The notes under the pieces are model-generated. The model saw only the letters and a list, made by a program, of their open reading frames with translations, did no database searches and was not told the origin of the DNA. This document shows, one piece after another, positions 14,819 through 63,729 of a stretch of 64,000 bases of DNA (positions are counted from its first letter, which is position 1; the number at the start of each line of letters is the position of its first letter). The DNA is from Planctomycetaceae bacterium (GTDB lineage Bacteria > Planctomycetota > Planctomycetia > Planctomycetales > Planctomycetaceae), in assembly GCA_021732415.1 (NCBI GenBank), contig JAKFVC010000065.1:1-64000 (forward strand). Direction: 5' to 3'. The position numbers and the translations under genes are program-made.

Positions 14819-14956
14819 ACGACGAGTTGGATGCCCAGCCTTGAGGTCTCTCGCGTCACGACATCCAGACCATCGGAGATGGTGCGACAAAGTTCCAACA
14901 TCGCGGAGAGACAGGATCCTCGAATGGCGAGCAATGCGTCGGAAAGAAGAAATGAA

Positions 14957-17422
14957 ATGGCGAAAGACCCGATTTGCGGAATGACGGTGGATGAGTCGTC
15001 TCCGCTGCGCGCGGAACGAGACGGGCAGACGTATTATTTTTGTAGCGAACATTGCCGAAAGAAATTCCTCGGGCAATCCCAACCCGCCACGGTCACAACC
15101 GGCAGTCAAGGCGTTGGTTCAGCAAGCCACACGCTGCACGGCCATGCCAATCACGATCATAGCGTTGTGATGGTAAAGCCCGCGGACTCTGCAAAATACT
15201 TCTGCCCAATGTGCTCGGGCGTGGAGTCGGATCAGCCGAGCAATTGTCCGAAATGCGGTATGGCGTTAGAACGCAATCCGGCTTCGATCGCGTCCGCGTC
15301 GGGCAAAACGATTTACACCTGCCCGATGCACCCGGAAGTCGTGAGCGACCAGCCGGGCAACTGCCCGAAGTGCGGCATGGCTCTGGAGCCGCGTACGGTC
15401 ACCGTCGCGGAAGGCCCAAACCTGGAATTGGCGGACATGAGTCGCCGCTTTTGGATTGGACTTGTCCTGAGTCTGCCCGTTTTCGTCCTGGCAATGGGCG
15501 ACATGCTACCCGGCCAGCCGCTGCACCACTTGGTGAGCATGCTGGCGATGAACTGGGTGCAGCTTGCGTTGACCACGCCGGTCGTTTTCTGGTGCGGTTG
15601 GCCGTTCTTCGAGCGGGCATGGGCTTCTATCGTCCACCGCAGCCCCAACATGTTCACGCTGATCGCCCTGGGCGTCGGCGCGGCTTACCTCTATAGCTTG
15701 GTCGCGACTGTCGCCCCTGGGTTATTCCCGGAAGGGTTTCGAGCGATTGGTGGCGCGGTGATGCCGTACTTCGACACTGCCGTCGTCGTGACGGTCCTGA
15801 TTCTGCTTGGTCAGGTTTTGGAACTGAAGGCCCGTAGTCAAACCAGCGGGGCGATCAAGCGTCTGCTCGGCCTGGCCCCGAAGACCGCTCGGCGCGTCAA
15901 GTCCGACGGCACTGAAGAAGACGCGCCGCTCGATCAGGTCCGGGTCGGTGACATGTTGCGAGTTCGGCCTGGTGAAAAGGTTCCGGCAGACGGTGTCGTC
16001 ATGGAGGGCCGTAGCACAGCAGACGAGTCAATGATCTCCGGCGAGCCGATCCCCGCCGAGAAGGAGCTTGGCAGCAAGGTCGTCGCCGCCACGGTCAACG
16101 GCACGGGCGGGCTGCTCATCCGTGCCGAAAAGGTCGGCTCTGACACGCTGCTCGCCCAGATCGTGCGTATGGTCGGCGAGGCACAGCGCAGCCGCGCCCC
16201 GATTGAGCGAGTCGTCGATCAGGCGTCTCGCTACTTCGTCCCGGCCGTCGTTCTTGTCAGCCTTCTGACTTTCGCTGTCTGGAGTATTTGGGGGACGGAG
16301 CCAAAGCTGGCCCACGCTCTGGTGAACTCCGTGGCCGTCCTGATCATTGCCTGCCCATGCGCTCTCGGGCTGGCCACGCCGATGGCGATTATGGTCGGCG
16401 TCGGGCGCGGGGCTGAGAATGGTATCCTCATCAAGAACGCCGAGGCGCTCGAAATTCTGCAACGAGCCGACACGCTCGTGGTGGATAAGACCGGCACGCT
16501 CACCGAGGGCAAGCCCCGTCTCGCTGCCGTCGAGCCCGCCGATGGCTTCACGGCGGACGAAATTCTACGGCTCGCGGCCGGCTTGGAGCGTGGCAGCGAA
16601 CATCCGTTGGCGGCTGCCATCATCCAAGGAGCTGAAGAAAAGCATCTGACCATTCCCACTGCGCAGGACTTTCAGTCCGTCACAGGTAAGGGCGTCACCG
16701 GCACCGTGGACGGTCGCAAGGCCGCCTTGGGCAACGCGGCCCTGATGGGCGAACACGCGGCCGACCTCAAGAGTATGCAGGGCCGGATTGAGGCGCTGCG
16801 CGGCGAAGGGCAAACGGTGATGCTTTTGGAAATCGACGGCCGCTTTGCCGGTCTGATCGGCGTTGCCGACCGAATTAAGGACACGACCCAGGAAGCCATT
16901 CGCCTGCTCCACGAGGATGGGCTGCGGATCATCATGCTGACCGGCGACAGCAAGCGCACGGCCGAGGCGGTGGCGCGGAAGCTGGGCATCGACGAAGTGA
17001 TCGCCGAGGTACTGCCGGGCCAGAAGAGCGAAAAGATCAAACAACTTCAGGCTGAAGGCCGGGTCGTCGCGATGGCGGGCGACGGGATCAACGACGCTCC
17101 GGCGTTGGCTCAGGCACAAGTCGGCATCGCGATGGGATCGGGCACGGACGTGGCGATCGAGAGTGCCGGCGTCACGCTGGTGAAAGGCGACCTGCGGGCC
17201 ATTGCCCGCGCCCGCCGCCTGAGCCGGGCAACGATGAGCAACATCCGGCAGAACCTGTTTCTCGCGTTCTTCTACAACCTGGCCAGCGTGCCGGTCGCTG
17301 CGGGAGTGCTGTATCCCTTCTTGGGCATTCTGATCAACCCGATCTGGGCCAGCGCCGCGATGAGCTTGAGTTCTCTGTCAGTCGTAGGAAACGCGCTGCG
17401 GCTGAGGCACGCGAAACTTTAG
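14957..17422 (+). CDS. Copper/silver P1B-type ATPase with YHS and two HMBD domains
   Basis: A cation-exporting ATPase of about 821 residues. It begins [20 protein letters not shown], a YHS domain closed by FCSEHC, followed by two heavy-metal-binding domains (CPMCSG...CPKCGMAL and CPMHPE...CPKCGMAL). Then come the transmembrane part with the CPC metal site at about residues 466-468, the phosphorylated DKTGT at about 510, and the hinge [13 protein letters not shown] plus HMBD points to Cu(I) or Ag(I) export from cytoplasm to periplasm. An ATG at 14924 with a good AGGA box would add 11 residues and is an alternative start. It follows the sigma/anti-sigma genes, so it is a likely target of them. 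Confidence 0.92.
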
Positions 17423-17649: not shown

Positions 17650-17793
17650 TCATGAACCTCTCGATTTTCAGCCCCATGCTCAGACTGACTGCGGGCATAC
17701 GTGGAGCGAGTTTCGTTCGAGCCAAAGAATCAACCGAATGACAGTGAGCTCATGTTTTTACCCGGAGTCGAACTCCGAGAAAGAAGGAATGCT

Positions 17794-18693
17794 ATGCAAA
17801 AGTACAAAACCGTGGCGACGTCGCGACTGGCAGTGTTCATCGGGGGCGCATTGCTGTCCTTTGCTCTGATCTCGCCTTTAATGAGCAACGCCCAAGTCAA
17901 ATCTAACAACGCAAAAGATCCCGACCCGCATGCCCAGCACAAGGACAAGCAGCCTGCTGAAGACCAGGACATGGCCAGCCAAATTGCGGAACTGAGTGCA
18001 AAGGTTGCTAGGCTCGAAGCGGCTTTGAAAAAGAGCGGGGCGGGCATGTCATCAGGCATGGCCGGCATGAAGCCAGACAAGGGTGGCAAGAAGCCAGCAA
18101 TGGGCGCGATGAAAGATGACATGGACGACATGGACCAAATGGGCGCGATGAAACTCAGCCAAGGCGCGCCGGCCGCGGGCGGCATGGGTGGCGGAGAGAT
18201 GGGGATGAAGATGGATAAGATGATGGGCATGATGGACATGATGATGAGCGGCGGTTCGATGCCACCCGCGGGCGGCATGGGCGGCGGAGAGATGGCCATG
18301 AAGATGGATAAAATGATGGCTATGATGGAGAAGAAAATGAGCGGCGGTTCGATGCCACCCGCAGGTGGCATGGGCGGCGGAGAGATGGCCATGAAGATGG
18401 ATAAAATGATGGCCATGATGGAGAAGAAAATGAGCGGCGGTTCGATGCCACCCGCAGGTGGCATGGGCGGCGGAGAGATGGCCATGAAGATGGATAAAAT
18501 GATGGGCATGATGGAGAAAATGATGAGCAGTGGTTCGATGCAACCGGCCCCGGCCGCGCCGGTGATGGGTGGAAACGGCAACTCAGCGTTGGAATTAAAG
18601 ATGGAAAAGTTGTTGTGGATGATGGAGAAAATGACTAGCGGCGGTTCAATGCAGTCCGCCCCGGCCGCGCCGGCGATGGGTGGGATGATGTGA
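17794..18693 (+). CDS. Secreted Met-rich repeat protein, likely copper binding
   Basis: A protein of about 299 residues. The ATG at 17794 has an AAGGA box and starts a signal peptide ending in SPLMSNAQ. A His/Asp linker and a coiled segment (residues about 55-75) follow, and then a long low-complexity region of Met, Gly, Lys and Asp, with about four units of 31 residues built on GGMGGGEMAMKMDKMMAMME. Clusters such as MxMxxMM are typical of periplasmic Cu(I)-binding proteins. It is directly after the copper ATPase and ends next to the CBM48 gene. The N-terminal 60 residues resemble those of the CpxP-like protein at 50725-51609. Role as a periplasmic copper sponge is inferred. Confidence 0.75.
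   Translation: MQKYKTVATSRLAVFIGGALLSFALISPLMSNAQVKSNNAKDPDPHAQHKDKQPAEDQDMASQIAELSAKVARLEAALKKSGAGMSSGMAGMKPDKGGKKPAMGAMKDDMDDMDQMGAMKLSQGAPAAGGMGGGEMGMKMDKMMGMMDMMMSGGSMPPAGGMGGGEMAMKMDKMMAMMEKKMSGGSMPPAGGMGGGEMAMKMDKMMAMMEKKMSGGSMPPAGGMGGGEMAMKMDKMMGMMEKMMSSGSMQPAPAAPVMGGNGNSALELKMEKLLWMMEKMTSGGSMQSAPAAPAMGGMM
18180..18546 (+). repeat. 93-bp in-frame tandem repeat
   Basis: Units start at 18247, 18340, 18433 and 18526, exactly 93 bases apart, each encoding 31 residues rich in Met. The middle units are almost identical at the DNA level, differing only at silent or single-codon positions, while the flanking partial units (from 18180 and after 18526) have diverged. This shows recent copy-number change within the Met-rich gene. 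Confidence 0.85.
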
Positions 18694-18719
18694 AAGCCAA
18701 AACAACCGGAAGCAAAAAC

Positions 18720-20099: not shown

Positions 20100-20714
20100 G
20101 TGAAAGAAACGATCTACGTGATGGCAAGAACTTCTCAACAGAGACGGCTGGCAGCGGTCAAGCCAAGGGGAACCGTTGTCGTTTTGTCGGCCGTGGTGTC
20201 CGTCCTTTGTGCCGTCGCCGCACTGGGGTTCGCGGCGTCGCCGGATTCCGGCCAAAGCGCGCCGCTGGAACTCAAGATGCCCGTTTCCCTGTGGACGCGG
20301 CACGAAGCCTTTCACGCGGAGTTCATCAAGGCGACGAAGGACACTGGCAAGGTCGGCGACGCGGCCCGAGCGATCGAGAAATTGGGTGCCACCCATTTTC
20401 CGAAGGCGAAGGATGTGTTCGCGCCGCTCGGACTGTTGCCCCGGCTGGCGGAGGGAAAGTTCACGCCGGAGATGAGCGAGGCGATCAAAGTGGCTGAGAA
20501 ACTAAGGGCCAGCCTGCCGCAGATTCACGGCGAGCACCGCGAACTTTTGGCGGGGCTGAAGAGACTCGGGGAAGCGGCCAAGGAAGAGGGGAAGACGGAC
20601 TACGTGCGCTTCGCTGAAAGTCTGAGCTTGCACATCCAGGAAGAAGAAGAGGTCTTGTACCCGACGGTCCTCCTGATCGGCGATTACGTGAAACGGAAAC
20701 TCGACAAACGGTAA
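20100..20714 (+). CDS. Hemerythrin-like HHE domain protein, exported
   Basis: A protein of up to 204 residues (GTG at 20100; an ATG at 20121 is an alternative). An N-terminal hydrophobic helix VVVLSAVVSVLCAVAALGFA makes it exported or membrane-anchored. The rest is a four-helix hemerythrin-type domain: LWTRHEAFHAEF, THFPKAKDVF, QIHGEHREL and SLHIQEEEEVLYP provide the expected His and acidic ligands for a di-iron or similar site. Such domains bind oxygen, NO or metal. It opens the redox gene group that continues with the membrane Met-rich protein and the reductase, about 115 bases downstream. Confidence 0.75.
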   Translation: MKETIYVMARTSQQRRLAAVKPRGTVVVLSAVVSVLCAVAALGFAASPDSGQSAPLELKMPVSLWTRHEAFHAEFIKATKDTGKVGDAARAIEKLGATHFPKAKDVFAPLGLLPRLAEGKFTPEMSEAIKVAEKLRASLPQIHGEHRELLAGLKRLGEAAKEEGKTDYVRFAESLSLHIQEEEEVLYPTVLLIGDYVKRKLDKR

Positions 20715-20829
20715 CGCGCCCCACGTCTTCATCGCGTTGCCAGCCCGGCGATGACGGCCCGCATGATCGCTGCCTCCCAGTGCGTGCCCAACTCATCTGG
20801 AACCATGAACCGCCTGAAGTGACATAAAC

Positions 20830-21642
20830 ATGAGCCATCTGCCTACTCAAACGTCAGTGACGATCCGGCTTGCCTGGCTCGGCGTGTTCGCCGTCTCGAT
20901 CGGACTGGCGTTGGGCATTCCGGGTTACGGACAGTCACCGGAGGAGCACGCAAAGCACCATCCCGCTCAGGACATGGCGAAGGACAAAGGAGGAGCACCG
21001 GGCATGCCCCCCGGCGGCGACGGGCCGGCGAAGGGGATGGGCGGAATGATGGAGGGGATGGGCGAAATGATGAAGGAAATGGGGAAGGCCCCGCCCAAGG
21101 AGTTGTATCCGACCCTGATGAGCCTACCCGAACTGACACCGGAACAGCGGAAGCAAGTCGAGAGTCAGGCGGACGAACGTATGAGTTCGGGTGTGGCCCT
21201 GTTGTCCGAGGGACTGGACCGACTGAGCGAAGCGACGGAGAACGAGGATTACGCGGCCATGCAGGAAGCCACCGCCCAAGTGCGCGAGGCCGTCGCGCAA
21301 TTCGAGAGCGGCCTGGCCGCCCGGCGCGCTCTGGCCGAGGGCAAGCCGCCGCGCCAGGTCGCCCTGCAATGGTTTAAGGATGAAATGAACCTTCAACCGC
21401 CGCAGAGTGTAGAACGTCGCGGCGGTTTCTCTGGAGTCACGCTATTTCACCTCTTCACGATGGTGCTGCTCATCGCGTTCGCGCTGGCGATGGTGGGCAT
21501 GTACTACTTCAAGATGCGTCGCGCTGCAGCCCTCTTTGAGCGTATCGAGACCGACTCGGGATCGCCTCCGCCTGGCTCGGCAGCGCCGCTGGCAGGAACA
21601 GCGCCGCCGCCTGCGGCGGACACCAAGGGGACGCCAGCATGA
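20830..21642 (+). CDS. Membrane-anchored Met/Gly-rich protein
   Basis: A 270-residue protein with a signal peptide (up to about residue 34), a His/Met/Gly-rich region (GMGGMMEGMGEMMKEMGK), a helical domain of about 100 residues, and a C-terminal membrane helix (GVTLFHLFTMVLLIAFALAM) followed by a Pro/Ala-rich tail. The Met-rich part suggests Cu(I) binding outside the membrane. Its stop overlaps the start of the reductase gene by 4 bases (ATGA), so they are translationally coupled and probably act together. Confidence 0.7.
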   Translation: MSHLPTQTSVTIRLAWLGVFAVSIGLALGIPGYGQSPEEHAKHHPAQDMAKDKGGAPGMPPGGDGPAKGMGGMMEGMGEMMKEMGKAPPKELYPTLMSLPELTPEQRKQVESQADERMSSGVALLSEGLDRLSEATENEDYAAMQEATAQVREAVAQFESGLAARRALAEGKPPRQVALQWFKDEMNLQPPQSVERRGGFSGVTLFHLFTMVLLIAFALAMVGMYYFKMRRAAALFERIETDSGSPPPGSAAPLAGTAPPPAADTKGTPA

Positions 21643-22781
21643 GCAAACTGACGACCAAACCAACCGCGTCGCATGCGAAAGTTGCCAAAGCTGCCCCGCC
21701 AAAGGAAACGGAGGCGATCGCGCCGTTGCCAGTGGCCGAGAATTGGCGCGGGCACCTTCGCGTCGGGAGCATCATCACAGAAACGCCCGGCGTGAAAACG
21801 TTTCGCCTCGTGCCTTCGTCCAGCGACCGCTTGCTCCCTTTCACATTCGTGCCCGGTCAGTTCCTCAATGTCGCGTTCTGGATTGGCGGCGCGAGAATGA
21901 ACCGCTCATACTCCATCTCATCCTCCCCGACGCAGCGCGAATACATCGACCTGACCGTGCGGCGCGAACCACGGGGCGCGGTCTCCCGTCACATCGTTGA
22001 TTTGCTCAAGGTGGGCGACCAGATCGAAGCGGCAGGCCCGGTCGGAAAATTTACGTTTGACGGAACAGAGGCGGACAGCATCGTCCTCATCGCAGCCGGC
22101 GTGGGCATCACGCCGATGATGAGCGTCACCCGGTATCTCACGGAGCGATCCTGGGCCGGAGAGATCTTCTTGATTTTCACATTCCGCAAACCAGCCGACT
22201 TCATTTTTGCGAACGAGATCACGGCGATTCAACGCGTGAATCCAAAGTTGCACGTCGCGGTCACGGTGACGAGAGCGGAAGGGACGGACTGGAAGGGCTC
22301 CCGCGGACGCATCACCAAGGAACTGCTCACACAGACGGTTCCCGATCTGGCTTCGCGGAGAGTCCACGTGTGCGGGCCGCAGTCGATGATGGAGGCGACC
22401 AAGGCCATGCTCACCGAGCTAGGCGTGGCTCCGGACCAACTGAAGACCGAAGCGTTTGGCGCAACCAAACCCGCCCCGGCCGCCGCCGGAACCGCCCTGA
22501 AACCAACAGCCGAGGCCACAGGCCCGCTGGTCACGTTTTCAACGAACAACAAGTCGGTCAAGATTCACGTCGATCAGACGGTTCTCGAACTCTCCGAGGA
22601 ACTCTCCATCGGCATCGAGAACTCTTGCCGCGTCGGCACCTGCGGCCTGTGCAAGGTGAAGATGACGTCCGGCGAGGTCGAGATGGCCGTCGAGGACTCT
22701 CTCACGCCCGACGACAAGGCCAACGGCATCATTCTCGCCTGCCAGGCGAAGCCGAAGAGCGACATCGTGGTGGAGGCGTAG
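21639..22781 (+). CDS. NAD(P)H:ferredoxin-type reductase with C-terminal 2Fe-2S domain
   Basis: A 380-residue flavoprotein of the ferredoxin-NADP reductase family. The FAD site is RSYS at 89-92, the NAD(P) site GVGITPMMS at 154-162 and CGPQSMM at 245-251. A plant-type 2Fe-2S domain follows with cysteines at 330, 335, 338 and 368. The layout is that of Hcr or phenol-hydroxylase type reductases. An N-terminal Ala/Lys-rich extension of about 35 residues is extra. It moves electrons from NAD(P)H through FAD to the iron-sulfur centre, and from gene order the next acceptor is probably the membrane cytochrome encoded 2 bases downstream. Confidence 0.88.
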   Translation: MSKLTTKPTASHAKVAKAAPPKETEAIAPLPVAENWRGHLRVGSIITETPGVKTFRLVPSSSDRLLPFTFVPGQFLNVAFWIGGARMNRSYSISSSPTQREYIDLTVRREPRGAVSRHIVDLLKVGDQIEAAGPVGKFTFDGTEADSIVLIAAGVGITPMMSVTRYLTERSWAGEIFLIFTFRKPADFIFANEITAIQRVNPKLHVAVTVTRAEGTDWKGSRGRITKELLTQTVPDLASRRVHVCGPQSMMEATKAMLTELGVAPDQLKTEAFGATKPAPAAAGTALKPTAEATGPLVTFSTNNKSVKIHVDQTVLELSEELSIGIENSCRVGTCGLCKVKMTSGEVEMAVEDSLTPDDKANGIILACQAKPKSDIVVEA

Positions 22782-22783
22782 CC

Positions 22784-23527
22784 ATGAAAGAACGCGATCG
22801 CATCATCGCCGCCAGCATCTTCGGCGTCTTGCTGTTTGCCTGGCTGGGCTTCCTCGTCCACACTTCGCCGCGCTTCGCAGGCAGCGGAGTCGGGGCGTTC
22901 TTCGGGATCGCGGGGGCCGTGCTCATGCTTGTGCCGCTCGCCTATCCGATCGTCAAACGCATTCGCTTCGTCAATGCAAGGATCACGCCACACGTTTCTC
23001 TCCAGTCGTGGATGACGGTGCATGTCTACGCCGGCATTCTCGGTCCTCTGCTGGGAATTATTCACACCGGCCACAAGTTCGACAGTTGGCTGGGAATCAC
23101 GTTGACGGCAGTGATGCTCCTCGTCGTCGTGAGCGGGTTCATCGGCCGCTATCTGCTGACTTACGTCAGCCAGGACATCAAAGACAAGCTGCTGCTCTTG
23201 CAGACGGCCAGGGGCGATCTGGATAGCGCATGGGGGGCGCTCCAGAACGCGCCCCCGGAGCTGCGTACACTTCCGAAGATGCGTCTCTTGGTCGCCGGCC
23301 TGGCGTCGTTGGGACTCGATCTTCAAATCGGCGGGCCAGCCGGCGAGGTCACCAAGCTTGCCGAATCCGTGGCGGACTTGGAGTTCGCGATCCGCACGCA
23401 CGAGCTGTTCAAGCGCTGGTGCAGCCGCTGGCTGAACCTGCACCTCGTTCTCTCCGTCATCCTCTACGTGTTGCTCGCACTGCACGTGTGGGCGGGAATC
23501 CATTTGGGATTGAGGTGGCTCTCATGA
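22784..23527 (+). CDS. Five-helix membrane protein, putative b-type cytochrome
   Basis: A 247-residue membrane protein with about five helices. Histidines at 80, 94 and 97 in the third helix region and at 220, 234 and 240 in the last helix are placed as in di-heme cytochrome b domains, so two b hemes spanning the membrane are likely. A soluble loop of about 85 residues separates helices four and five. It sits between a 2Fe-2S reductase and a multiheme cytochrome c, with 2-base and overlapping (ATGA) junctions. The simplest reading is a transmembrane electron conduit from the cytoplasm to the periplasm. Heme binding is inferred, not shown. Confidence 0.7.
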   Translation: MKERDRIIAASIFGVLLFAWLGFLVHTSPRFAGSGVGAFFGIAGAVLMLVPLAYPIVKRIRFVNARITPHVSLQSWMTVHVYAGILGPLLGIIHTGHKFDSWLGITLTAVMLLVVVSGFIGRYLLTYVSQDIKDKLLLLQTARGDLDSAWGALQNAPPELRTLPKMRLLVAGLASLGLDLQIGGPAGEVTKLAESVADLEFAIRTHELFKRWCSRWLNLHLVLSVILYVLLALHVWAGIHLGLRWLS

Positions 23528-24357
23528 AACTGCGAACGGCATTTCTTTATGCGGCCATCGTACTGGCCTTGCCTGTGATCGGGTTCTTGACGTTTTCCTC
23601 GCACTACTCTCATCATCGGGATCAAACGGCGGCTGTGATTGTCTCACTCGCCTTTTGGCAGCACATGGTGAGTCCCGGTGAGTTGTCGCAGGCCCACGCG
23701 TCGTTGGAGAATAATTGCGCGGCCTGCCACACACCGGTCAAGGGCGTCGAGGCGCAGAAGTGCATCATCTGCCACGCCAACAATGAGTCGTTGCTGCAGC
23801 GCCAGCCAACCGCGTTTCATGCCAACGTGAGCAGTTGCGTCGAGTGCCACCGCGAGCATCGGGGGACCGATCAGCGCCCGAACGAAATGAACCATCTGGC
23901 GCTGGCCGAGATCGGTTTCCGCCTTTTGAAAACCGACCACCCACCAGCCGGTGAAAACGAACGAGTGCGGAAAGACCTGCTCGACTGGATCGGCCAACAT
24001 CAGCCCGCGAGCCAAGGGTCGGAAGGCCATTCGAGCCTCACCCCAGAGGAAGCGGTCTTGAATTGTGCGACCTGCCATTCCAATAAGGATCGGCACGTCA
24101 AACTGTTCGGCCAGGATTGTGGCCAGTGCCACACGACGGCGAAGTGGACGATCCCGGAGTTTCGGCATCCGTCGCCAAATTCCAAGGACTGCGCACAGTG
24201 CCATCAGGGGCCGCCGAGCCATTACATGATGCACTTTCAAATGATGTCGGCCAAGGTGGCGGGCAAACCGAAGGCGCAGGTCAATCAGTGTTTCCAGTGC
24301 CACCAGACGACGGCATGGAACGACATTAAAGGCATTGGCTATTACAAGCACCATTAG
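23524..24357 (+). CDS. Heptaheme c-type cytochrome
   Basis: A 277-residue protein with an N-terminal membrane segment (FLYAAIVLALPVIGFLTF) and seven CXXCH heme sites at residues 65, 80, 105, 181, 199, 223 and 256 (CAACH, CIICH, CVECH, CATCH, CGQCH, CAQCH, CFQCH). Extra histidines spread through the chain can serve as sixth ligands, as in cytochrome c7/c3-type proteins. The start ATG overlaps the stop of the cytochrome b gene. It is probably anchored to the inner membrane facing the periplasm, taking electrons from the cytochrome b and reducing an unknown acceptor, possibly metal ions, in view of the neighbours. Confidence 0.88.
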   Translation: MKLRTAFLYAAIVLALPVIGFLTFSSHYSHHRDQTAAVIVSLAFWQHMVSPGELSQAHASLENNCAACHTPVKGVEAQKCIICHANNESLLQRQPTAFHANVSSCVECHREHRGTDQRPNEMNHLALAEIGFRLLKTDHPPAGENERVRKDLLDWIGQHQPASQGSEGHSSLTPEEAVLNCATCHSNKDRHVKLFGQDCGQCHTTAKWTIPEFRHPSPNSKDCAQCHQGPPSHYMMHFQMMSAKVAGKPKAQVNQCFQCHQTTAWNDIKGIGYYKHH

Positions 24358-26690: not shown

Positions 26691-26770
26691 ATGCATGGCC
26701 AAATGCGATGGCTCAGGGGGAGTCGCGCATTATCCGGCAATCGCTAAGAGCTCAGAAATGGACAGACCCA

Positions 26771-28396
26771 ATGCCAGCTTCCGAAATCATTCAGGCCAAG
26801 GCAGCGGGGCACGTCGATACTCCCGCTCCTACTCCTGTGCAGGTAGCGGAACCTTTCGCCTTGATTATTTTCGGAGCTACCGGGGCTTTGACCCACAGTA
26901 AGCTGCTCCCGGCGCTGTTCAGCCTGTGGCAAGGCAACTTCTTCGGCACGCCTTTCATCATCGTTGGGGTGGGCCGGCGCGACAAAACCGATAACCAGTT
27001 CCGTGATGAACTTCGTGACGCAGCCGAGACGCACGACCGTATACATGCCAGCGACCGGAATGCATGGGAGAGCTTTGCCGAAAATGTCATCTACCATCGG
27101 TCGGACTTCACCGTCGCGGAGAGTTACAGTACGCTGGCCGAGCGTCTCCAAGGGCTGGAAAAGGAGCGCGGGCTTGGCGGAAACCGCCTTTTTTATCTGG
27201 CTACCGACTCCGACCAGTTCGCTCGGATCATCAAAGAGCTCGCCGCTGTGGGCTTGGTTCAGCGGGAAGCGACGCAGCCCTGGACGCGGGTCGTAGTCGA
27301 GAAGCCCTTCGGCAAGGATGTAACGAGTGCCCGCACACTGGACGAGGACATCCTACGCGTTCTACACGAGGAGCAGATTTTTCGCATCGACCATTACTTG
27401 GGCAAGGAGACGGTGCAGAACCTCCTGTCGTTTCGCTTCGGCAACGCCATATTCGATCCACTTTTCAATAGCCGCTATGTCGATCACGTTCAGATCACGA
27501 TGGCCGAGGTCGACGGCATGGAGGGTCGGCGAGGTGCCTATTACGACGGGGCTGGGGCTTTGCGGGACGTCGTGCAGAACCATCTTCTGCAGTTGCTGGC
27601 CCTAGTGGCGATGGAGCCGCCCGCGTCGCTGGGGGCGAAGGATGTCCATGACGAGAAGGTGAGAGTACTGCGTCAGCTCGTGCCTGGAGGGGGAAAAGAC
27701 GGGAGCGGCTGGGTAGTGCGCGGCCAGTACGGCACAGGAACAAGGGAGGGCCGGCCAGCACGCGCCTACCGCGAGGAGGAAGCGGTCGCCACGAACTCCA
27801 CCACCGAGACCTACCTGGCGCTGCGTCTGGGAGTGGATACTCCGCGCTGGGCTGGCGTCCCGTTCCTACTGCGAACCGGCAAAGGACTGGCCCGGCGGGT
27901 GACGGAGATTGCCATCGAGTTCAAGCAGGCACCATTGCGTCTTTTCACCGCGGCGACGCAGAACGGAGACCTATGCGATCGGACTTGCAACTGCGGAGCC
28001 GATTGTCGATGCGGCATCGCTTACGCGGAGCCCAGCGTTTTGGCGTTTCGCATCCAGCCGGATGAGGGGATCAGCCTGTCATTCTCGGCCAAGCAGCCGG
28101 GTATGCAACTGGTGCTACAGCCGGTGCGGATGGATTTCCTCTATGGGCAATCGTTTAAGCAAGCCCTGCCCGAAGCCTACGAGCGGCTGCTGCTGGATGC
28201 GCTGCGGGGTGACTTGACCCTATTCATGCGGTCCGACGAGGTGACGACGGCCTGGGAGTTCGTGACACCGATCCTGGAGGCGTGGGAGCGACAGCCTGCA
28301 CCAAACTTTCCCAACTACGCGGCCGGAAGCTGGGGGCCGGTCGAGGCAGACCGGCTCCTGAGCGGGTGCCAGCGGGAGTGGCGTCAATTCCAGTAG
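26771..28396 (+). CDS. zwf: Glucose-6-phosphate dehydrogenase with Cys cluster
   Basis: Oxidises glucose-6-phosphate to 6-phosphogluconolactone with NADP+, the main entry to the oxidative pentose phosphate pathway. The nucleotide site is seen in LIIFGATGALTHSKLLPAL, the catalytic core in RIDHYLGKETVQN, and VVVEKPFGKD nearby. From the ATG at 26771 it is 541 residues, longer than usual members of about 490-510. Part of the difference is an insert after the FKQAPLRLF strand, with C402, C406, C408, C412 and C414 (CDRTCNCGADCRCG), before the normal FRIQPDEGISL. The CxC pattern resembles metallothionein. An ATG at 26708 is an alternative start. It sits among metal-resistance genes, so it may supply NADPH under metal stress. 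Confidence 0.9.
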   Translation: MPASEIIQAKAAGHVDTPAPTPVQVAEPFALIIFGATGALTHSKLLPALFSLWQGNFFGTPFIIVGVGRRDKTDNQFRDELRDAAETHDRIHASDRNAWESFAENVIYHRSDFTVAESYSTLAERLQGLEKERGLGGNRLFYLATDSDQFARIIKELAAVGLVQREATQPWTRVVVEKPFGKDVTSARTLDEDILRVLHEEQIFRIDHYLGKETVQNLLSFRFGNAIFDPLFNSRYVDHVQITMAEVDGMEGRRGAYYDGAGALRDVVQNHLLQLLALVAMEPPASLGAKDVHDEKVRVLRQLVPGGGKDGSGWVVRGQYGTGTREGRPARAYREEEAVATNSTTETYLALRLGVDTPRWAGVPFLLRTGKGLARRVTEIAIEFKQAPLRLFTAATQNGDLCDRTCNCGADCRCGIAYAEPSVLAFRIQPDEGISLSFSAKQPGMQLVLQPVRMDFLYGQSFKQALPEAYERLLLDALRGDLTLFMRSDEVTTAWEFVTPILEAWERQPAPNFPNYAAGSWGPVEADRLLSGCQREWRQFQ

Positions 28397-28458
28397 AACC
28401 ACGGCGATGAAGGTTGAACAGCCTGTTTCATCCTTCCTCTTGGATTGGAGACGGCTGC

Positions 28459-29832
28459 ATGGCCCAACCCTTATACGACGATATGCTGGACTCCCTTCAA
28501 CGAGATGCGTTCGGTTACTTCGTAAATGAAGTGAACCCCGCGAATGGATTGGTGAAGGACTGCACCCGCCCGGGCTTTCCGTCCAGCATCGCCGCCGTCG
28601 GACTGGCTCTGGCGGCTTATCCAGTAGGCGTCGAGCGGGGGTTGCTGAAGCGCACGGCGGCGGTGTCGCGGACGCTGACGACCTTGCGCTTCTTCTGGAA
28701 CAGCCCCCAAGGGCCCGAGTCGGATGCCACCGGCCACATGGGGTTCTACTATCACTTCCTTGACATGGAAACAGGACGGCGCGCCGGGGACTGTGAACTG
28801 TCCACCATTGACACGACGATCCTGCTCGCAGGGGCGCTGGCCGCCGCCTTGTACTTTGACCGGGACGTGGGTGAGGAGCGCGAGGTGCGGGAATTGGCGG
28901 ACACCCTCTACTGCCGCACAGACTGGAAGTGGGCACAGAACGGGGAGTCGACGGTCACACACGGCTGGAAGCCGGAGGGCGGGTTCCTGCCGTATCGTTG
29001 GCGGGGCTATGATGAGGCCACGATCCTCTATCTCTTAGGTCTCGGCTCGCCGACGCATCCCCTGTGCGTGGAGAGCTACATGGCGTACACATCGACCTAC
29101 AGTTGGAAGAACATCTACGATTACGAGTTCCTGTACGCGGGACCGCTTTTCATCCACCAATACTCGCACGTCTGGATCGACTTTCGTGGGATCCAGGATG
29201 AGTACATGCGTGCCAAAGGCATCGACTACTTCGAGAACAGCAAACGGGCGACGCACGTGCAGCAGGAATACGCAATCCGCAATCCGCTCCAGTTCCGGCG
29301 CTCCTGCGGGTGCCACCAGTGCGAATGCTGCTGGGGAATTACCGCCAGCGACGGCCCAGGCCCCACAACGCTAATTATTGACGGTATCGAACGCCGCTTT
29401 TTTGATTATCTGGGCCGCGGCGCGCCCTACGGACCCGACGACGGCACCATCGCTCCATGGGCCTCGGCCGCGTCCTTACCTTTTGCCCCGGAGATTGTTC
29501 TGCCGACGATCGAACACATGGTCCAACTTGGCGTCAAGCAAACGTCATGCCGGTACGGGCTAGTGGGCAGCTTCAATGCGACGTTCCCCGGGCCGACGCC
29601 CCTTGGCTGGGTATCTCCCTGGAATTATGGGCTCAATCAGGGCCCGCTGGTCCTGATGGTAGAGAACTACCGCTCAGGACTCATTTGGAGCTTGATGCGC
29701 CGTTGTCCGTATCTGATCGCAGGACTTGAACGGGCAGGTTTTTCCGGCGGCTGGTTGGAGAGTGATCGGGCCACGTCCAGGTCGGAGCCTACGGCTGCTT
29801 CTGATGGCCTTCATGTTCCTGACCGCCCATGA
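28459..29832 (+). CDS. Glucoamylase-family (PF10091-like) protein with Cys cluster
   Basis: A protein of about 457 residues related to the bacterial glycoamylase-like family, usually an alpha/alpha-barrel: DAFGYFVNEVNPANGLVKD, FYYHFLDMETGRR, DTTILLAGAL, IHQYSHVWIDFRGI and WGITASDGPGP. It has no signal peptide. In place of the few residues before WGITASDGP it has five cysteines, C283, C285, C288, C290 and C291 (SCGCHQCECC). The ATG at 28459 has a GGAGA box; an upstream start at 28414 lacks one. It follows the dehydrogenase gene by 62 bases, and its end overlaps the convergent multicopper oxidase gene by 44 bases. Activity on alpha-glucans or beta-glucans is unknown. Confidence 0.8.
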   Translation: MAQPLYDDMLDSLQRDAFGYFVNEVNPANGLVKDCTRPGFPSSIAAVGLALAAYPVGVERGLLKRTAAVSRTLTTLRFFWNSPQGPESDATGHMGFYYHFLDMETGRRAGDCELSTIDTTILLAGALAAALYFDRDVGEEREVRELADTLYCRTDWKWAQNGESTVTHGWKPEGGFLPYRWRGYDEATILYLLGLGSPTHPLCVESYMAYTSTYSWKNIYDYEFLYAGPLFIHQYSHVWIDFRGIQDEYMRAKGIDYFENSKRATHVQQEYAIRNPLQFRRSCGCHQCECCWGITASDGPGPTTLIIDGIERRFFDYLGRGAPYGPDDGTIAPWASAASLPFAPEIVLPTIEHMVQLGVKQTSCRYGLVGSFNATFPGPTPLGWVSPWNYGLNQGPLVLMVENYRSGLIWSLMRRCPYLIAGLERAGFSGGWLESDRATSRSEPTAASDGLHVPDRP

Positions 29833-31357
29833 TTTTGTCGTACAATTCCGGCGGTAGCACGCGTAAGACGGTGAAGAGACCTTCGATCGCCATCGACCAG
29901 CCGGGACGCATGCCCATCGCTTCGCGTCGGCCCTCGACTCGGTCCGCGCCTTCCATCCCTTCCATGCCTTTCATTCCCTCGTGGCCGGCCATTGGCTTTT
30001 GTGCGGCTTCGGGTTTCATGTTCATCTTGCTGTGATCGGGTTCGCCGTTCGATTTCAGGGGTGTTTTCTTCTGTGGCATGTCTTTCATGTCGTGTTTTTT
30101 CATGTCCATGCCCTTCATGTCCGCACCGGGCATCTTCATGTCTTTCATGTTGGGCATGGCCATGCCCAACATGACTTGCGGATACCCTTTCACTTGGAGT
30201 TGCTCAGGCGTGGAATTGTCGCGGATCAACGGGCCGGCTTGAGACGACATCGAGTTCATCATGTGGTGGAACATGTGACAGTGCAGCCCCCAATCCCCTG
30301 GGTTGTTGGCGATGAACTCGACTTCACGCACCTGGGCCACTCCGACCAACACGTTGTTGCTCGGATACCAAGCCGACTCCGGCAGGCGGCCGCCCTCGGT
30401 GCCCGTAATCCAGAACGTATGCCCGTGAAGGTGCAGGGGGTGGTGGTCCATCACGCTGAAATCCAGGAAGCGAATTCGCAAACGCTCACCCAACTTGCAC
30501 AGCAGCGGAGTGGTGAGCGGGCCGCAGCGGCCATTCAGCGTCAGGAAATTCCATTCCATGGACAGCGTGTCCGGAACGGTCGAATTCGGACGCAGTTGAA
30601 ATCCCTGAGCGATCAGGACGAAATCGCGATCCACCGCCGGCTCGTGAGTCTTGGCGGGATACACAATGAAGAGGCCTACCATGCCCATCGCTTCCTGCAT
30701 ACCTTCGTGCGAGTGATAGAAAAACGTCCCCTCTTGATGAACCGTCCATTCGTAGGAAAACTCTTGCCCCGGTTCGATAGTATCCTGATTCAGGTACGGA
30801 ACCCCATCCATGTCGTTGGGGAGTTCCAGCCCGTGCAGATGCAGCGTGGTCGGCTCGGGGAGTTTGTTGTGCAAGACAATTCGAACGCGATCGCCCTGAT
30901 TGAGTTCAATGGTCGGTCCAGGCATGTCTCCGTTGTAGCCGTAGGTGTCCATCCACACGCCGGGCAGGATTTCCCGGCGCACTGGCTCGGCAGTCAAATG
31001 AAACTCTTTAGCTCCGTCGACATCTTCCCAAGGCAGTTTCTGCAGGTCGGGTGCGTGGATCGGAACTGGCGGCAACGTGGCATCGCGATAGCCCGGCACC
31101 AGCTTGCCGCGGTCGGTGGGACTTCCGACTGGTCCGCCCAAGCCAGCGTGGGTGCGGGGATACTCGACCGCATCGTTTTCAGCGACAGGAGGCTGGTGCT
31201 TCTCATGCTCGCCTTGCGGCGGTTTGGCCATTGGGCTATCGCTGGGCTGTTCGGCGAGCTTTTCTTGCGCACGTCCCAATGCCGTGCCAGCCACGAGAAT
31301 GCCTGCTGCGGTCGCACCCTTGACGAGAAAGTTTCTGCGATCGTCGGGATGGGTCAT
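29789..31357 (-). CDS. Multicopper oxidase, Tat-exported, Met-rich tail
   Basis: A protein of about 522 residues. RRNFLVK near the N terminus is a Tat signal, as usual for folded copper enzymes. The copper motifs appear in order: HLHGLELPN, FFYHSHEGM, HPLHLHGHTFW and GLHCHMFHHM, which make up the T1 and the trinuclear T2/T3 sites. A long C-terminal tail is very rich in Met, Lys and His (KDMKMPGADMKGMDMKKHDM), as in CueO/PcoA-type cuprous oxidases. A GGAG box precedes the ATG at 31357. It probably oxidises Cu(I) to less toxic Cu(II) in the periplasm. Its end overlaps the convergent glucoamylase gene by 44 bases. Confidence 0.92.
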   Translation of the reverse strand: MTHPDDRRNFLVKGATAAGILVAGTALGRAQEKLAEQPSDSPMAKPPQGEHEKHQPPVAENDAVEYPRTHAGLGGPVGSPTDRGKLVPGYRDATLPPVPIHAPDLQKLPWEDVDGAKEFHLTAEPVRREILPGVWMDTYGYNGDMPGPTIELNQGDRVRIVLHNKLPEPTTLHLHGLELPNDMDGVPYLNQDTIEPGQEFSYEWTVHQEGTFFYHSHEGMQEAMGMVGLFIVYPAKTHEPAVDRDFVLIAQGFQLRPNSTVPDTLSMEWNFLTLNGRCGPLTTPLLCKLGERLRIRFLDFSVMDHHPLHLHGHTFWITGTEGGRLPESAWYPSNNVLVGVAQVREVEFIANNPGDWGLHCHMFHHMMNSMSSQAGPLIRDNSTPEQLQVKGYPQVMLGMAMPNMKDMKMPGADMKGMDMKKHDMKDMPQKKTPLKSNGEPDHSKMNMKPEAAQKPMAGHEGMKGMEGMEGADRVEGRREAMGMRPGWSMAIEGLFTVLRVLPPELYDKIMGGQEHEGHQKQP

Positions 31358-31461
31358 TTCGATCTCCAGGCAGTAGCCAGCTAATACGACAAGACTTTGC
31401 GGCGTCGCGGCCAGACCGCGAACTCTCATGCGTTCCAATTCAAACCAGCCCGCATGCAGTC

Positions 31462-37594: not shown

Positions 37595-40500
37595 TTACGG
37601 CTTTGCCTCACGCCGATTCTCCGAAGGTGATGCGGGAGCAACCGTTGGCGGTGCGCCGGTTGGGGCGGCTGAACTCGTCTTGTCGTTGAGTTTCGGTTCT
37701 GGGACTGCGGCTTGCCGAGTCGGATGTGGAGCGGCCATCACAACATCCTGTCGAGTGGCCGTGCCGGAGGAAGTCGCGTTAGTTTTGGTTCTCTCATAGA
37801 CCTTGCGGCCGAACTTAAAGAACAAGGCGGGCGTGACAACTTGGTCGAGGATCGTTGAGGTCAACATGCCGCCGAAGACGACGAGCGCGAGCGGGTAGAG
37901 AATTTCCTTGCCGGTCTGCCCCGCTCCGAACAGCAGCGGCAGCAGGCCGATGAAGCTGGTCATGGCGGTCATCATCACGGGTGCGAGACGCTCCAAACTG
38001 CCGCGTACGATCATCTGTTCGGAAAAGGTCTCGCCTTCGTGCTGCATCAGGTGGATGTAGTGCGAGATCATCATGATACCGTTGCGGCTGACGACTCCGA
38101 TCAGCGTGATGAAACCGACCCAGTGAGCGACTGAGAGGCTCGTCGCGCTGACCCAGACGCGGGGCCAGTCCCACCACGGCGCAACTTGTAGCGCGGACCA
38201 CTCCGGGCGATTCACGATCAACAGTGCCAGCACGGAACCGAACGCGGCGAGCGGGATGTTGACCAAGACTTGCACCGCGGCGCGCCAGGAATCGAGTGCC
38301 TTGCAGAGCAGCAAGAACACGCCCAGGATGCTGAGCGCACCGAGAATCGCGAGTCGACGATTCGCCTGCTGCTGAGCCTCGAACTGGCCGCTGTATTCGA
38401 GGTAGTAGCTGCCGGGTAATTTTCGCAGGTTGTCTTCGACTGGCGTGAGCGCCTGCTTGATGTCGGCGACGACGCTGGCGAGGTCACGGCCTTGTGTGTT
38501 GCAGAAGACGACGATGCGGCGTTGAACGTGTTCGCGATTGAGCGTGTTCGGACCCGTGGTGTCGAGCACTTCGGCGACCTGTCCCAGCGCGACGCGGCGA
38601 CCGGAGGGTGTTTCGAGGATCGTTTCGTTAATGACGTCGGGATCGCTGCGCGAGTCGGCGTCGTACCAGACGACCAGACCGAAGTAACGGTCCTCGTCGA
38701 GCACCTGCGAGACCACTCGCCCTTTGTAGGCGGTCTCCAAGAGTTCGGCGACGTCTCCGGGAGCCAGTCCATAGCGGGCGGCTTCGTCGCGTTTCACCTT
38801 CAATCGCACTTGCGAGATTTCGACTTGCGGCTCAATCTGTAAATCGACGATACCGGGGATCGGCTGCATGCGTTCTTGAATGTCATAGGCGGCCGTGCGG
38901 AGTTCGCGTAAATCCTGGCCGAAGACTTTGACCGCGATTTGGGCGCGGATGCCGGACATCATGTGATCCAGGCGGTGCGAGATCGGCTGACCGATGTTCA
39001 CGGCGGCTCCGGGGATATTCGAGATGCGGTCGCGCACCGCGGCGATGACTTCTTCGCGCGGACGCCCCACGGAATCAAAGCCCCAGAGGTGCGCAATGGG
39101 TACTAATCGCAACACCGCAAACCCCCAGCCTGGTTTCGGCGGACGATGTTCGGCAAGTCGCACATCGATTTCGGACGAGTTGACTCCCTCGGCGTGCTCG
39201 TCCAGTTCCGCGCGGCCCGTGCGGCGCGAAACAGAGAGGACTTCCGGCACATCCAGGATCAATCGCTCGGCTCGCTCGGCGACGCGTTGGCTTTCGTCGA
39301 GGCTGGTACCGGGCTCCATCCGCAAACTAATGGTCAACGTCCCTTCGTTGAACGGCGGCAGGAACTCGCCACCCATCCACAGAATGCTCGTGCAGGACAC
39401 CGCGACCAGCACGGCGACAAAGCTCAGAATCAGCGTTGCGTGGCGCAGCGTGAATCGCAGCACTGTCGCATCGACGCGTTTCAGCCAACGTAGAAATAGC
39501 GGGTCTTTTTCTTCATCCAGGAGCTTTGCTTGCGGCAACAGGAACGACCCGAGCACGGGCGTGAACGTGAGCGACACCACCAACGAGCAGAGCAGAGCAA
39601 CGATGTACGCGATGCCGAGCGGGGCGAACATGCGGCCCTCCAAGCCAGCCATCGAGAACAATGGAAACATGACCAGAATTACGATCAGCGTTGCATACAC
39701 GATCGAGTTCCGCACCTCGCACGAGGCGTCGTAGATCACGTCCAGGGGCGAGCGTTGTTGGCTGACCGGGAGCTGCCGGTTCTCTTTCAACCGACGGTAG
39801 ATGTTCTCGATATCCACAATTGAATCGTCCACCAGATCACCGATCGCTACCGCGATTCCTCCCAGCGTCATCGTGTTGATCGTGATGCCGAACCAGTGGA
39901 ATACGAGCACGGTCAGCAGAATCGACAGCGGCATAGAAGTCAGCGAGCTGAGACTCGTGCGGAAGTTGCCCATCAACAGGAACAGCACGACGATGACCCA
40001 CAACGCTCCGTCGCGAACCGCTTCGGTGACGTTCTCGACGGCGGCTTCGATGAAGTCGGCCTGCTTGAAGATGCGACGTTCGATCACGACATCTGGCGGC
40101 AATTCCTTCTGCAACGATTCCAGCACGTCGTCAATCTTGCGGTCGAGTGCCAGGGTATCGGCGTTCGGCTGCTTCTGGACGGTCATGATGACGGCCGAGC
40201 CGCCGCTGATTTTCGTCGTCGTGGCTGCTTCGTCGTCTTTCTCGCCATCGCTGTGCTCATGGTCTGCTTCATGTTTGTCGTGACTATGTTTCGACGGCTC
40301 AACATGACTGCTTTTCTCGCGACCAGCCTCGCCATGACTGTCCACAGGCGGGTCGGCTTCAGCGTGCCCGTGCGGTTGCGATTCACGAACGGCGGCATTC
40401 ACGTCGGGTTCGAGCTTCACCCACGCACTGCCGTCGCCCCGCTTGACGGGCCCCCCGAAACGGACATCGGCCACGTCCTTAATCCGCACGGGCATTGGCT

Positions 40501-41275
40501 CGCGCCACAGTACCGGCGTGTTTTCGATCTCCTCCAGCGTCAGGCTTTGTCCGCTGATCCGCAGCAGCGACTCCTTCGGCGACCGGACCATGATGCCTCC
40601 GCCCGCGATGACGTTGGCTTTTTGAGCCGCATCGGTGAGCTGTTGCAGCGTGATGTTTTGAGCCGCCAGTCGCGCGGGCGACGTGATGATCTGATATTGC
40701 TTGAGCACACCGCCCATGACTGTGACTTGCGACACGCCTCCGACCGCCAGCAACCGATTGCGCAACGTAAATTCCCCCAGCGTTCGCAATTCCATCGCCT
40801 TTGCCGCTTGTTCTTCGGGAGACTTCAATTCGGCGGTGGACCGCAGACCGAGCAGCATGATCTCGCCCATGATCGAGGAGATCGGAGCCATGACTGGGTT
40901 GGTGTCGGCGGGCAACCGCTCGCGAGCCAGTTGCAGTTTCTCCGCGACGATCTGTCGGTCGCGAAAGATATCGGTACCCCAATCGAACTCGACCCACACA
41001 ATTGACAGCCCGATGCCCGATGCCGACCGCACCCGCTGCACGCCGGTGGCTCCGTTGAGCAGAAACTCGATGGGCCGCGTGACCAATACTTCGACTTCTT
41101 CCGGCGCGAGGCCGGCCGCCTCGGTCATAATCGTCACCGTCGGACGATTGAGATCGGGGAATACATCGACGGGCATCTCGCGCAGCAGGATCACTCCGTA
41201 GACCATGACCACGAGCGACCCAATTAGCACGAGGGCGCGATTCTTCAGAGAGAAAGAGATGATCCAATTCAGCAT
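37595..41275 (-). CDS. HME-family RND heavy-metal efflux pump (CzcA/CusA type)
   Basis: A 1226-residue inner-membrane pump. It opens MLNWIISFSLKNRALVLIGS with the HME signature VDVFPDLNRPTVTIMTEAAG, and has the 12-helix, two-periplasmic-loop RND pattern with DDSIVDIENIYRRL in helix four. It exports divalent or monovalent heavy metals using the proton gradient. In the first periplasmic loop, about residues 285-358, is an insertion rich in His and acidic residues (KHSHDKHEADHEHSDGEKDD) that is not typical for CzcA or CusA and likely binds metal. It is 12 bases downstream of the fused adaptor gene. Confidence 0.9.
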   Translation of the reverse strand: MLNWIISFSLKNRALVLIGSLVVMVYGVILLREMPVDVFPDLNRPTVTIMTEAAGLAPEEVEVLVTRPIEFLLNGATGVQRVRSASGIGLSIVWVEFDWGTDIFRDRQIVAEKLQLARERLPADTNPVMAPISSIMGEIMLLGLRSTAELKSPEEQAAKAMELRTLGEFTLRNRLLAVGGVSQVTVMGGVLKQYQIITSPARLAAQNITLQQLTDAAQKANVIAGGGIMVRSPKESLLRISGQSLTLEEIENTPVLWREPMPVRIKDVADVRFGGPVKRGDGSAWVKLEPDVNAAVRESQPHGHAEADPPVDSHGEAGREKSSHVEPSKHSHDKHEADHEHSDGEKDDEAATTTKISGGSAVIMTVQKQPNADTLALDRKIDDVLESLQKELPPDVVIERRIFKQADFIEAAVENVTEAVRDGALWVIVVLFLLMGNFRTSLSSLTSMPLSILLTVLVFHWFGITINTMTLGGIAVAIGDLVDDSIVDIENIYRRLKENRQLPVSQQRSPLDVIYDASCEVRNSIVYATLIVILVMFPLFSMAGLEGRMFAPLGIAYIVALLCSLVVSLTFTPVLGSFLLPQAKLLDEEKDPLFLRWLKRVDATVLRFTLRHATLILSFVAVLVAVSCTSILWMGGEFLPPFNEGTLTISLRMEPGTSLDESQRVAERAERLILDVPEVLSVSRRTGRAELDEHAEGVNSSEIDVRLAEHRPPKPGWGFAVLRLVPIAHLWGFDSVGRPREEVIAAVRDRISNIPGAAVNIGQPISHRLDHMMSGIRAQIAVKVFGQDLRELRTAAYDIQERMQPIPGIVDLQIEPQVEISQVRLKVKRDEAARYGLAPGDVAELLETAYKGRVVSQVLDEDRYFGLVVWYDADSRSDPDVINETILETPSGRRVALGQVAEVLDTTGPNTLNREHVQRRIVVFCNTQGRDLASVVADIKQALTPVEDNLRKLPGSYYLEYSGQFEAQQQANRRLAILGALSILGVFLLLCKALDSWRAAVQVLVNIPLAAFGSVLALLIVNRPEWSALQVAPWWDWPRVWVSATSLSVAHWVGFITLIGVVSRNGIMMISHYIHLMQHEGETFSEQMIVRGSLERLAPVMMTAMTSFIGLLPLLFGAGQTGKEILYPLALVVFGGMLTSTILDQVVTPALFFKFGRKVYERTKTNATSSGTATRQDVVMAAPHPTRQAAVPEPKLNDKTSSAAPTGAPPTVAPASPSENRREAKP

Positions 41276-41287
41276 TCGAGTTCCTTC

Positions 41288-48463: not shown

Positions 48464-49273
48464 TCATTTGGGAGAATGCACATGCCCGGTCAGGGCACTG
48501 CGATCATTCGAGCCAGTCAGAACCTTCCGTTGTTCATCAGTGAGTAATTTAACTGCTTCACCCACTGACTCGATGAATGCCAGCCGTTGTTCGCCACGCA
48601 GTTTTTCGATGGCTTCCACTTTCGCCTGGATTTGGGCGAGATCCGGCTCATTGATTCCAGTCAACTCCCAGAGTTGTTGCTCAGCCTCATCGATGTTTCG
48701 CTGGGCCGTCGATCTGCTCAGCAGCGACTTCTGTTTCAGGCGGTTGAGTGCCACTTGTTGCTTGATCGTCATTGCGATGTGCTCCGCATGGTTCAGGAAG
48801 AACCCCGTCGCACCAATATGATAGAGACGCGACAGACCCGGAATACCGGGGAGCGCAGAAGACGCGGCGATGACCCATTCCCCGTTTGTCGCACCGGCAC
48901 CGGCCTGCATTGCCATCTGTTCGGGCATCGGGCGCGATTGCCCGGCCATGGACTGTGACAACTTGTCATGCCCCATGCCAGCGTGGCCGCTCACCTTCTC
49001 CAGGTGTGCCGGCGGAGGCTGCGGCGTACCAGCAGGCTTCTGCGACTTCAATTGGCCGCTTTGAGATTCATGCGTGTCGGCATGTCCCATCGCCGCATGA
49101 CCATCTCCGCTTGATTTTTTCGGGCTCCTGGCGTCGTCCTGTGTCATTTTGCCATGATCGTGCCCGGTCCCTACAGGCGATTCATCGCGGAAGTAGGCGA
49201 CGAGCAGTGCGGCGGACACGATCAAGATCACCATGACGGCGAGGAATGCTTTGAGATTGACGAGTGGTTCCAT
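48464..49273 (-). CDS. CpxP/CnrR-like metal resistance protein
   Basis: A protein of about 269 residues. An N-terminal membrane helix (LKAFLAVMVILIVSAALLVA) anchors it, followed by a His/Met-rich linker (HGKMTQDD, HAAMGHAD, GHAGMGHDK) and a helical domain of about 130 residues with NHAEHIAMTIKQQVALNRLK and LTDEQRKVL, the LTxxQ type motif of Spy/CpxP/CnrR periplasmic proteins. It probably senses metal or protects envelope proteins. It starts 14 bases after the stop of the flavoprotein gene, and is paralogous to the gene at 50725-51609. Confidence 0.7.
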   Translation of the reverse strand: MEPLVNLKAFLAVMVILIVSAALLVAYFRDESPVGTGHDHGKMTQDDARSPKKSSGDGHAAMGHADTHESQSGQLKSQKPAGTPQPPPAHLEKVSGHAGMGHDKLSQSMAGQSRPMPEQMAMQAGAGATNGEWVIAASSALPGIPGLSRLYHIGATGFFLNHAEHIAMTIKQQVALNRLKQKSLLSRSTAQRNIDEAEQQLWELTGINEPDLAQIQAKVEAIEKLRGEQRLAFIESVGEAVKLLTDEQRKVLTGSNDRSALTGHVHSPK

Positions 49274-49287
49274 GAGCCATTGACAAG

Positions 49288-50628: not shown

Positions 50629-50724
50629 AAGAAAGTCGCAGACTTGTGTTGTGCCCTTGCGCAATTCCGATGCGTTTCACGATGAACGATGCACCGGCTG
50701 AAAACTCACTGTCAGCACATTCCC

Positions 50725-60956: not shown

Positions 60957-63689
<2,733 letters not shown>

Positions 63690-63729
63690 CGGCTTCGTCT
63701 TGTCGTAAGGGTGTCTGGAGAAACGAAAA

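Follow-up and report, generated by a model that had tools for sequence, protein, structure and literature searches.

A mobile gene module of copper-resistance islands, a candidate NAD(P)H-driven reductase of periplasmic metal

Introduction

Among the described systems closest to the locus reported here, the bacterial membrane protein CcoG (FixG-type) has been shown to reduce Cu(II) and supports copper tolerance; its loss raises copper sensitivity and its overproduction raises tolerance, so copper reduction can accompany a higher tolerance (PMC7558416). In the ferric reductase domain proteins (Fre, NOX, and STEAP), electrons pass from NAD(P)H to flavin and then to one or more transmembrane hemes, and Fe(III) or Cu(II) is reduced outside the membrane. 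The PepSY_TM reductases FoxB and CrpH also carry out a di-heme transmembrane reduction in the periplasm, and CrpH has been suggested to be a copper reductase (PMC13038864). The Geobacter Ext and MtrCAB conduits combine an entry module with a chain of multiheme c cytochromes. Finally, two genes of Alteromonas, orf1 and cyt, were co-cloned beside a hydrogenase, HynSL (PMC3102683).

Here we describe a four-gene module that resembles each of these systems in some respect. On balance, we consider it probable that the module is a mobile, copper-associated, NAD(P)H-driven reductase of metal, namely copper, in the periplasm. A search of openly accessible journal papers brought up no account of it as a copper system.

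Results

Gene content and surroundings of the module

The module was found in the window, that is, the whole stretch of 64,000 nt that was analyzed, whose positions serve as coordinates (Table 1). Its core is formed by four adjacent intact genes on the plus strand. The end of the Met-rich gene and the start of the reductase gene have an ATGA in common, a 2-base gap lies between the reductase stop and the b-type start, and a further ATGA overlap joins the b-type and heptaheme genes. An earlier note on this DNA had described five genes in a row, the last four with overlaps or a 2-base gap, and this arrangement was verified. The first of the five codes for a hemerythrin-like protein and lies 115 bp upstream of the Met-rich gene; its inclusion in the set did not hold, since just three relatives, all planctomycetes (L031, L032, and L049), were found to have it close to the module, with inconstant adjacency, and it was ruled out as a core gene.

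Table 1. Features of the window discussed in the text
Feature	Position	Strand	Basis
Hemerythrin-like protein, non-core neighbor	20100..20714	+	Pfam hemerythrin, 5.5e-6
Met-rich membrane protein	20830..21642	+	No Pfam match
NAD(P)H:FAD:[2Fe-2S] reductase, FNR-type, predicted cytoplasmic	21639..22781	+	Pfam, NCBIfam, motifs
Five-helix b-type (di-heme-type) membrane protein	22784..23527	+	Conserved His, helices; no Pfam match
Heptaheme cytochrome c, predicted periplasmic	23524..24357	+	CXXCH count, Pfam multiheme models
CopA-type P-type ATPase with YHS and two HMBD metal-binding domains	14831..17422	+	Context
Met-rich repeat protein	17701..18693	+	Context
Glucose-6-phosphate dehydrogenase (putative NADPH supply)	26708..28396	+	Context
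Putative glucoamylase-family protein	28414..29832	+	Context
Met/His-rich multicopper oxidase	29789..31438	-	Context
CusA/CusB-like RND efflux genes	37595..43510	-	Context
Metal_resist/LTXXQ-like gene	48464..49384		
Single-chain ferric-reductase (FRD) type reductase	49288..50664	-	
Stretch similar to the Metal_resist/LTXXQ-like gene	50761..51333		
Ca2+-type P-type ATPase	60957..63740	-	

Outer-membrane efflux proteins and two RND/CusB sets also surround the module. The window contains a second reductase, of the FRD type, and the Metal_resist/LTXXQ-like gene and the similar stretch beside it make this another pairing of a metal sensor with a transmembrane reductase in the same island. A P-type ATPase of the Ca2+ type, not the heavy-metal type, adjoins CusA/CusB-like genes.

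Distribution

With the b-type protein as query, a scan of 84,980 species genomes yielded 23 loci, a search of 149 related genomes added others, and 52 plasmid records carry a relative, including plasmids of Sphingobium, Alteromonas, Variovorax, Acetobacter, Methylophaga, Spirosoma, and Legionella anisa. Altogether, there are about 40 distinct loci in eight phyla by record label (Planctomycetota, Verrucomicrobia, alpha, beta, and gamma Pseudomonadota, Bacteroidota, Elusimicrobiota, Hydrogenedentota, Polyangia, and a cyanobacterial MAG). Nearly all of them have the same genes in the same order (Met-rich, reductase, b-type, heptaheme), and because this order is kept in so many phyla it is not due to chance. 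Plasmids and copper-resistance islands carry the module from one bacterium to another, unrelated one. It is also rare and accessory: when the best candidates of a first look were scored, it was present in at least 7 of 294 Planctomycetota and, for the class that includes Variovorax, in at least 2 of 369 genomes.

On a Legionella anisa plasmid (L072:11233-11995), two reading frames share what should be a single b-type gene; the genes next to it look intact. Two unrelated loci have a Fic-domain gene after the module, and a third has one at a distance of no more than 8 kb (L061:11695-12906, L075:13751-14863, and L072:19737-20711).

The Met-rich protein and the reductase

The Met-rich protein has a signal-like segment, an MxxxMMxxM motif, a helical hairpin, a transmembrane helix at about residues 205–227, and a positively charged tail. 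Residues M77, M81, and M84 are invariant among homologs, and several proteobacterial members have added Cys residues beside the Met motif. Judging by charge, the KMRR following the transmembrane helix would place the N-terminal part in the periplasm and the C terminus, hence also the fused reductase of other loci, in the cytoplasm. The protein matched no Pfam family. Its membership in the Metal_resist, CnrX, or CpxP (LTXXQ) group was rejected, as neither Pfam Metal_resist nor LTXXQ matched; BLASTP against a Metal_resist neighbor showed no similarity, and a fold search found nothing significant for a link to Metal_resist, CnrX, or CpxP.

In most homologs, the Met-rich protein and the reductase are encoded by a single ORF of about 525–690 aa, whereas in the clade of the window the two genes are split, with an ATGA overlap or a short gap. 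The fusion indicates that the Met-rich protein belongs to the reductase and is not an independent chaperone, and it gives the reductase a Met/Cys motif of the soft-metal kind.

The Pfam domains of the reductase are FAD_binding_6, NAD_binding_1, and Fer2, in this order, and its motifs RxYS, GxGxTP, CGP, and CX4CX2C...C are kept in 34–38 of 38 homologs. Domain order and motifs are those of the FNR-type NAD(P)H:[2Fe-2S] class (Hcr/GbcB/PaaE); within this class no specific member can be named, because the protein scored below the cut-off of every NCBIfam equivalog.

The b-type membrane protein and the heptaheme cytochrome

In the cytochrome b of bc1 complexes and in ferric reductases, two stacked hemes are held by two helices with His residues 14 positions apart. 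In the b-type protein, H80/H94 and H220/H234 form two exact H-X13-H pairs, which by their spacing agree with the HX12-13H pattern of the ferric reductase type, and heme binding is predicted. A membrane protein lacking heme ligands had been named beforehand as an outcome that would count against the proposed electron path; instead, both pairs, together with H26 and H97, were invariant in the 21 aligned b-type proteins, and the same six His residues were present in at least 38 of 39 members of a wider set. Nearly all loci keep both pairs. The TM2-TM3 loop is strongly positive (4.4 K+R against 0.1 D+E), which by the positive-inside rule would make it cytoplasmic, with one His pair on each membrane face. 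The charged and helical loop 122–214 would also be cytoplasmic and is a plausible docking site for the reductase.

No Pfam family matched the b-type protein above cut-off. Ferric_reduct was sub-threshold in 6 of the 21 members (best E 0.0099) and Ni_hydr_CYTB in 5 of the 21 (best E 0.00048), neither matched the window protein, and similarity to DUF4405 was also sub-threshold. Assignments to the Ferric_reduct family and to the cytochrome b561/Ni-hydrogenase cytochrome b group were therefore both rejected, as the first requires a transmembrane domain above the curated cut-off and the second a Ni_hydr_CYTB match above it. Moreover, unlike in the FRD/NOX/Fre superfamily, the FAD and NAD(P) domains are on a separate chain from the b-type protein. 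In some planctomycete and Hydrogenedentes loci, a DUF547 domain is found C-terminally on this protein (L034/L068 6167-7801 and L067 2888-4450).

The window's heptaheme cytochrome has exactly seven CXXCH motifs and an N-terminal hydrophobic segment. Its Pfam matches are to the MtrC/c3/c7 multiheme models, and at least eight distal His residues are conserved, as in the multiheme class III/c7 type. The seven motifs are kept by nearly all homologs, with one missing in L032/L047. Some homologs also weakly match NrfH and octaheme models, and some ExtN/ExtO.

When the PDB was searched by sequence and by profile, nothing significantly related to the b-type, the heptaheme, or the Met-rich protein came up. 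AlphaFold models of the b-type and Met-rich proteins were of moderate confidence (pLDDT about 70), and fold searches of the PDB with them gave no match below E=0.09.

Distant b-type relatives in planctomycetes (L042-L046) adjoin cytochromes with 10–15 hemes and, in single cases, a Pyr_redox flavoprotein or 4Fe-4S proteins. Because of these relatives, the module is regarded as one branch of a wider b/multiheme-c theme, and their complexes are possibly an undescribed family.

Genes linked to the module

For 33 independent module loci, none of them a plasmid source of queries, the surroundings were set against 33 random stretches of 20 kb by tblastn, using copper, sugar, and other families as queries and a distance of about 10 kb. 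Any copper family was found near the module in 21/33 loci and in 3/33 controls (p=6.5e-6), in a comparison where some queries came from the window's own island, several loci were truncated where their contigs end, the relatives have ancestors in common, and most of the controls were planctomycete. Excluding P-type ATPases, the numbers were 18/33 and 0/33 (3e-7); at least two copper families were present in 14/33 versus 0/33, multicopper oxidases in 16/33 versus 0/33, and Metal_resist genes other than the Met-rich protein in 21/33 versus 0/33 (8e-9). The eight annotated plasmid loci that supplied queries, and so are not independent, each have copper genes as well.

Taken together, copper or Metal_resist genes accompanied the module in 27/33 loci, against 3/33 controls. 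Of the six loci with neither, two are contigs under 7 kb (L048 and L102), and one (L061) belongs to a genome in which a copper locus (L106) holds the module a second time; the remaining three (L034, L067, and L072) appear to be true exceptions. The earlier note had foreseen, as an outcome against it, that the trio of reductase, b-type protein, and heptaheme cytochrome would sit mainly in respiratory operons unrelated to metals, and the neighborhood comparison did not find it so.

A respiratory or redox-balancing role, as an electron sink or a hydrogenase partner that rides on copper islands by chance, is very unlikely. [NiFe] hydrogenase operons do directly adjoin the module on an Alteromonas plasmid (L070, 15.8–27 kb) and in the cyanobacterial MAG (L061, 1.7–7.9 kb), which counts against the copper-reduction reading and points to other uses of the electrons, and one of the distant planctomycete pairs of b-type protein and 10–15-heme cytochrome is accompanied by Pyr_redox flavoprotein and 4Fe-4S genes. 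However, hydrogenases occur at only 2 of about 40 loci, which rules out a general role as hydrogenase partner, the module is rare and accessory, and in E. coli the hydrogenase was active without the AltDE proteins Cyt and Orf1 (PMC3102683).

The annotated neighbors on plasmids are pcoA/copB, CusABC, a Cu-ATPase, four-helix copper-binding proteins, and DUF411/DUF2933. It is rather improbable that the module is a broad reductase of metals and oxyanions (Ag, Au, Fe(III), Te/Se), linked to copper because copper, silver, and other resistances travel together. Such a role would suit the weak matches of some heptaheme homologs to ExtN/ExtO of selenite/tellurite reduction operons, and plasmids with the module do carry other resistances, e.g., mer and czc on an Alteromonas plasmid (PMC4781885); the consistent neighbors are nonetheless pcoA/copB, CopA, CusA, and four-helix copper-binding genes, as seen with queries that did not systematically include mer, ter, sil, or ars.

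The multicopper oxidases suggest yet another reading, in which the same electron path protects copper-stressed cells by feeding the periplasmic removal of oxygen, peroxide, or NO, or the neighboring oxidase itself. We consider it unlikely. These oxidases flank the module in the 16 loci above, a hemerythrin gene does so in the three planctomycete relatives, and the weak NrfH and octaheme matches would fit; yet at about half of the loci no multicopper oxidase was detected, across the loci no consistent linkage was seen to genes for a peroxidase, an NO reductase, or a terminal oxidase, and the reductase has a Met/Cys soft-metal motif of its own.

Genes for sugar and NADPH metabolism (G6PD, phosphogluconate dehydrogenase, and glycogen/starch) were near the module in 16/33 loci and 2/33 controls (2e-4). 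Glycogen/starch, G6PD, and gnd genes recur beside it in the window (18690-19013 and 26708-29832) and in L055, L059, L063, L071, L077, and L079, and in copper islands they perhaps supply NADPH.

Discussion

As proposed in the earlier note, the module is still best read as an electron path without gaps that starts at NAD(P)H in the cytoplasm and leads into the periplasm; this path is well supported by the conserved cofactor motifs and heme ligands. In the cytoplasm, NAD(P)H would reduce FAD and then the [2Fe-2S] cluster; the electrons would pass to a cytoplasmic-side heme (H80/H220) and a periplasmic-side heme (H94/H234) of the b-type protein, and from there to the heptaheme cytochrome in the periplasm. 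The cytochrome would then pass them on to copper, most likely turning Cu(II) into Cu(I), to which Met-rich proteins, CusABC, and copper-storage bundles bind; the reduction possibly goes on to Cu(0). Copper is put forward as the last acceptor because of the copper context and the Met/Cys domain. The periplasmic Met-rich domain may bind copper at the membrane surface and either recruit the substrate or switch the reductase on, the module would operate in response to copper, and the linked G6PD, phosphogluconate dehydrogenase, and glycogen/starch genes may refill NADPH. Metal reduction, or the keeping of Cu as Cu(I), which the earlier note had listed among the possible roles, likewise stands as the best reading, on context and with the hemerythrin dropped from the set.

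Multicopper oxidases are thought to oxidize Cu(I), the opposite of the proposed reaction, and their presence in the same islands is the main weakness of the copper-reduction reading. Oxidase and reductase can be reconciled if they are active at different times or under different oxygen supply. In a more cautious wording, the module probably either reduces copper or uses the electron flow against copper stress.

Somewhat more tentatively, the module could be a new class of cupric reductase, that is, a mobile complex of three to four proteins in which a copper-binding periplasmic domain is covalently joined to an NAD(P)H reductase, which actively reduces periplasmic copper and whose islands bring their own glycogen-to-NADPH fuel genes; we hold this to be possible, if short of probable. 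If true, the module would be a dedicated NAD(P)H-driven, periplasm-facing copper route spread by plasmids across many phyla, and its presence in culturable carriers, with Methylotenera mobilis 13 and Variovorax sp. WDL1 among the harmless natural ones, makes the question of copper reduction directly testable.

As predicted from its proteins, the module would work like a metalloreductase, yet it falls below the curated cut-offs of Ferric_reduct, Ni_hydr_CYTB, and Metal_resist, and it differs from each of the described systems. CcoG has two 4Fe-4S clusters, an unknown donor, and a tie to cbb3 oxidase assembly, with no heme b or c and no NAD(P)H domain. The Fre, NOX, and STEAP proteins are single polypeptides with neither a heptaheme cytochrome nor a Met-rich domain, and FoxB and CrpH have PepSY domains and an unknown donor, with no flavoprotein or multiheme c partner. 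The Ext and MtrCAB conduits, to which the module is alike in its weak ExtN/ExtO matches, are respiratory, reach the outer membrane, and lack a link to copper islands; no porin (outer-membrane beta-barrel) or surface cytochrome was recognized in the conserved gene set of the module, and for this reason an MtrCAB or porin-cytochrome conduit was rejected. Judged by gene order, orf1 and cyt of Alteromonas appear to be the b-type protein and the heptaheme cytochrome (L070; PMC3102683). In the accessible part of the HynSL study, they were treated only as possible hydrogenase accessories, with no function found, and the fused reductase upstream of them, which that part does not discuss, belongs here to the module.
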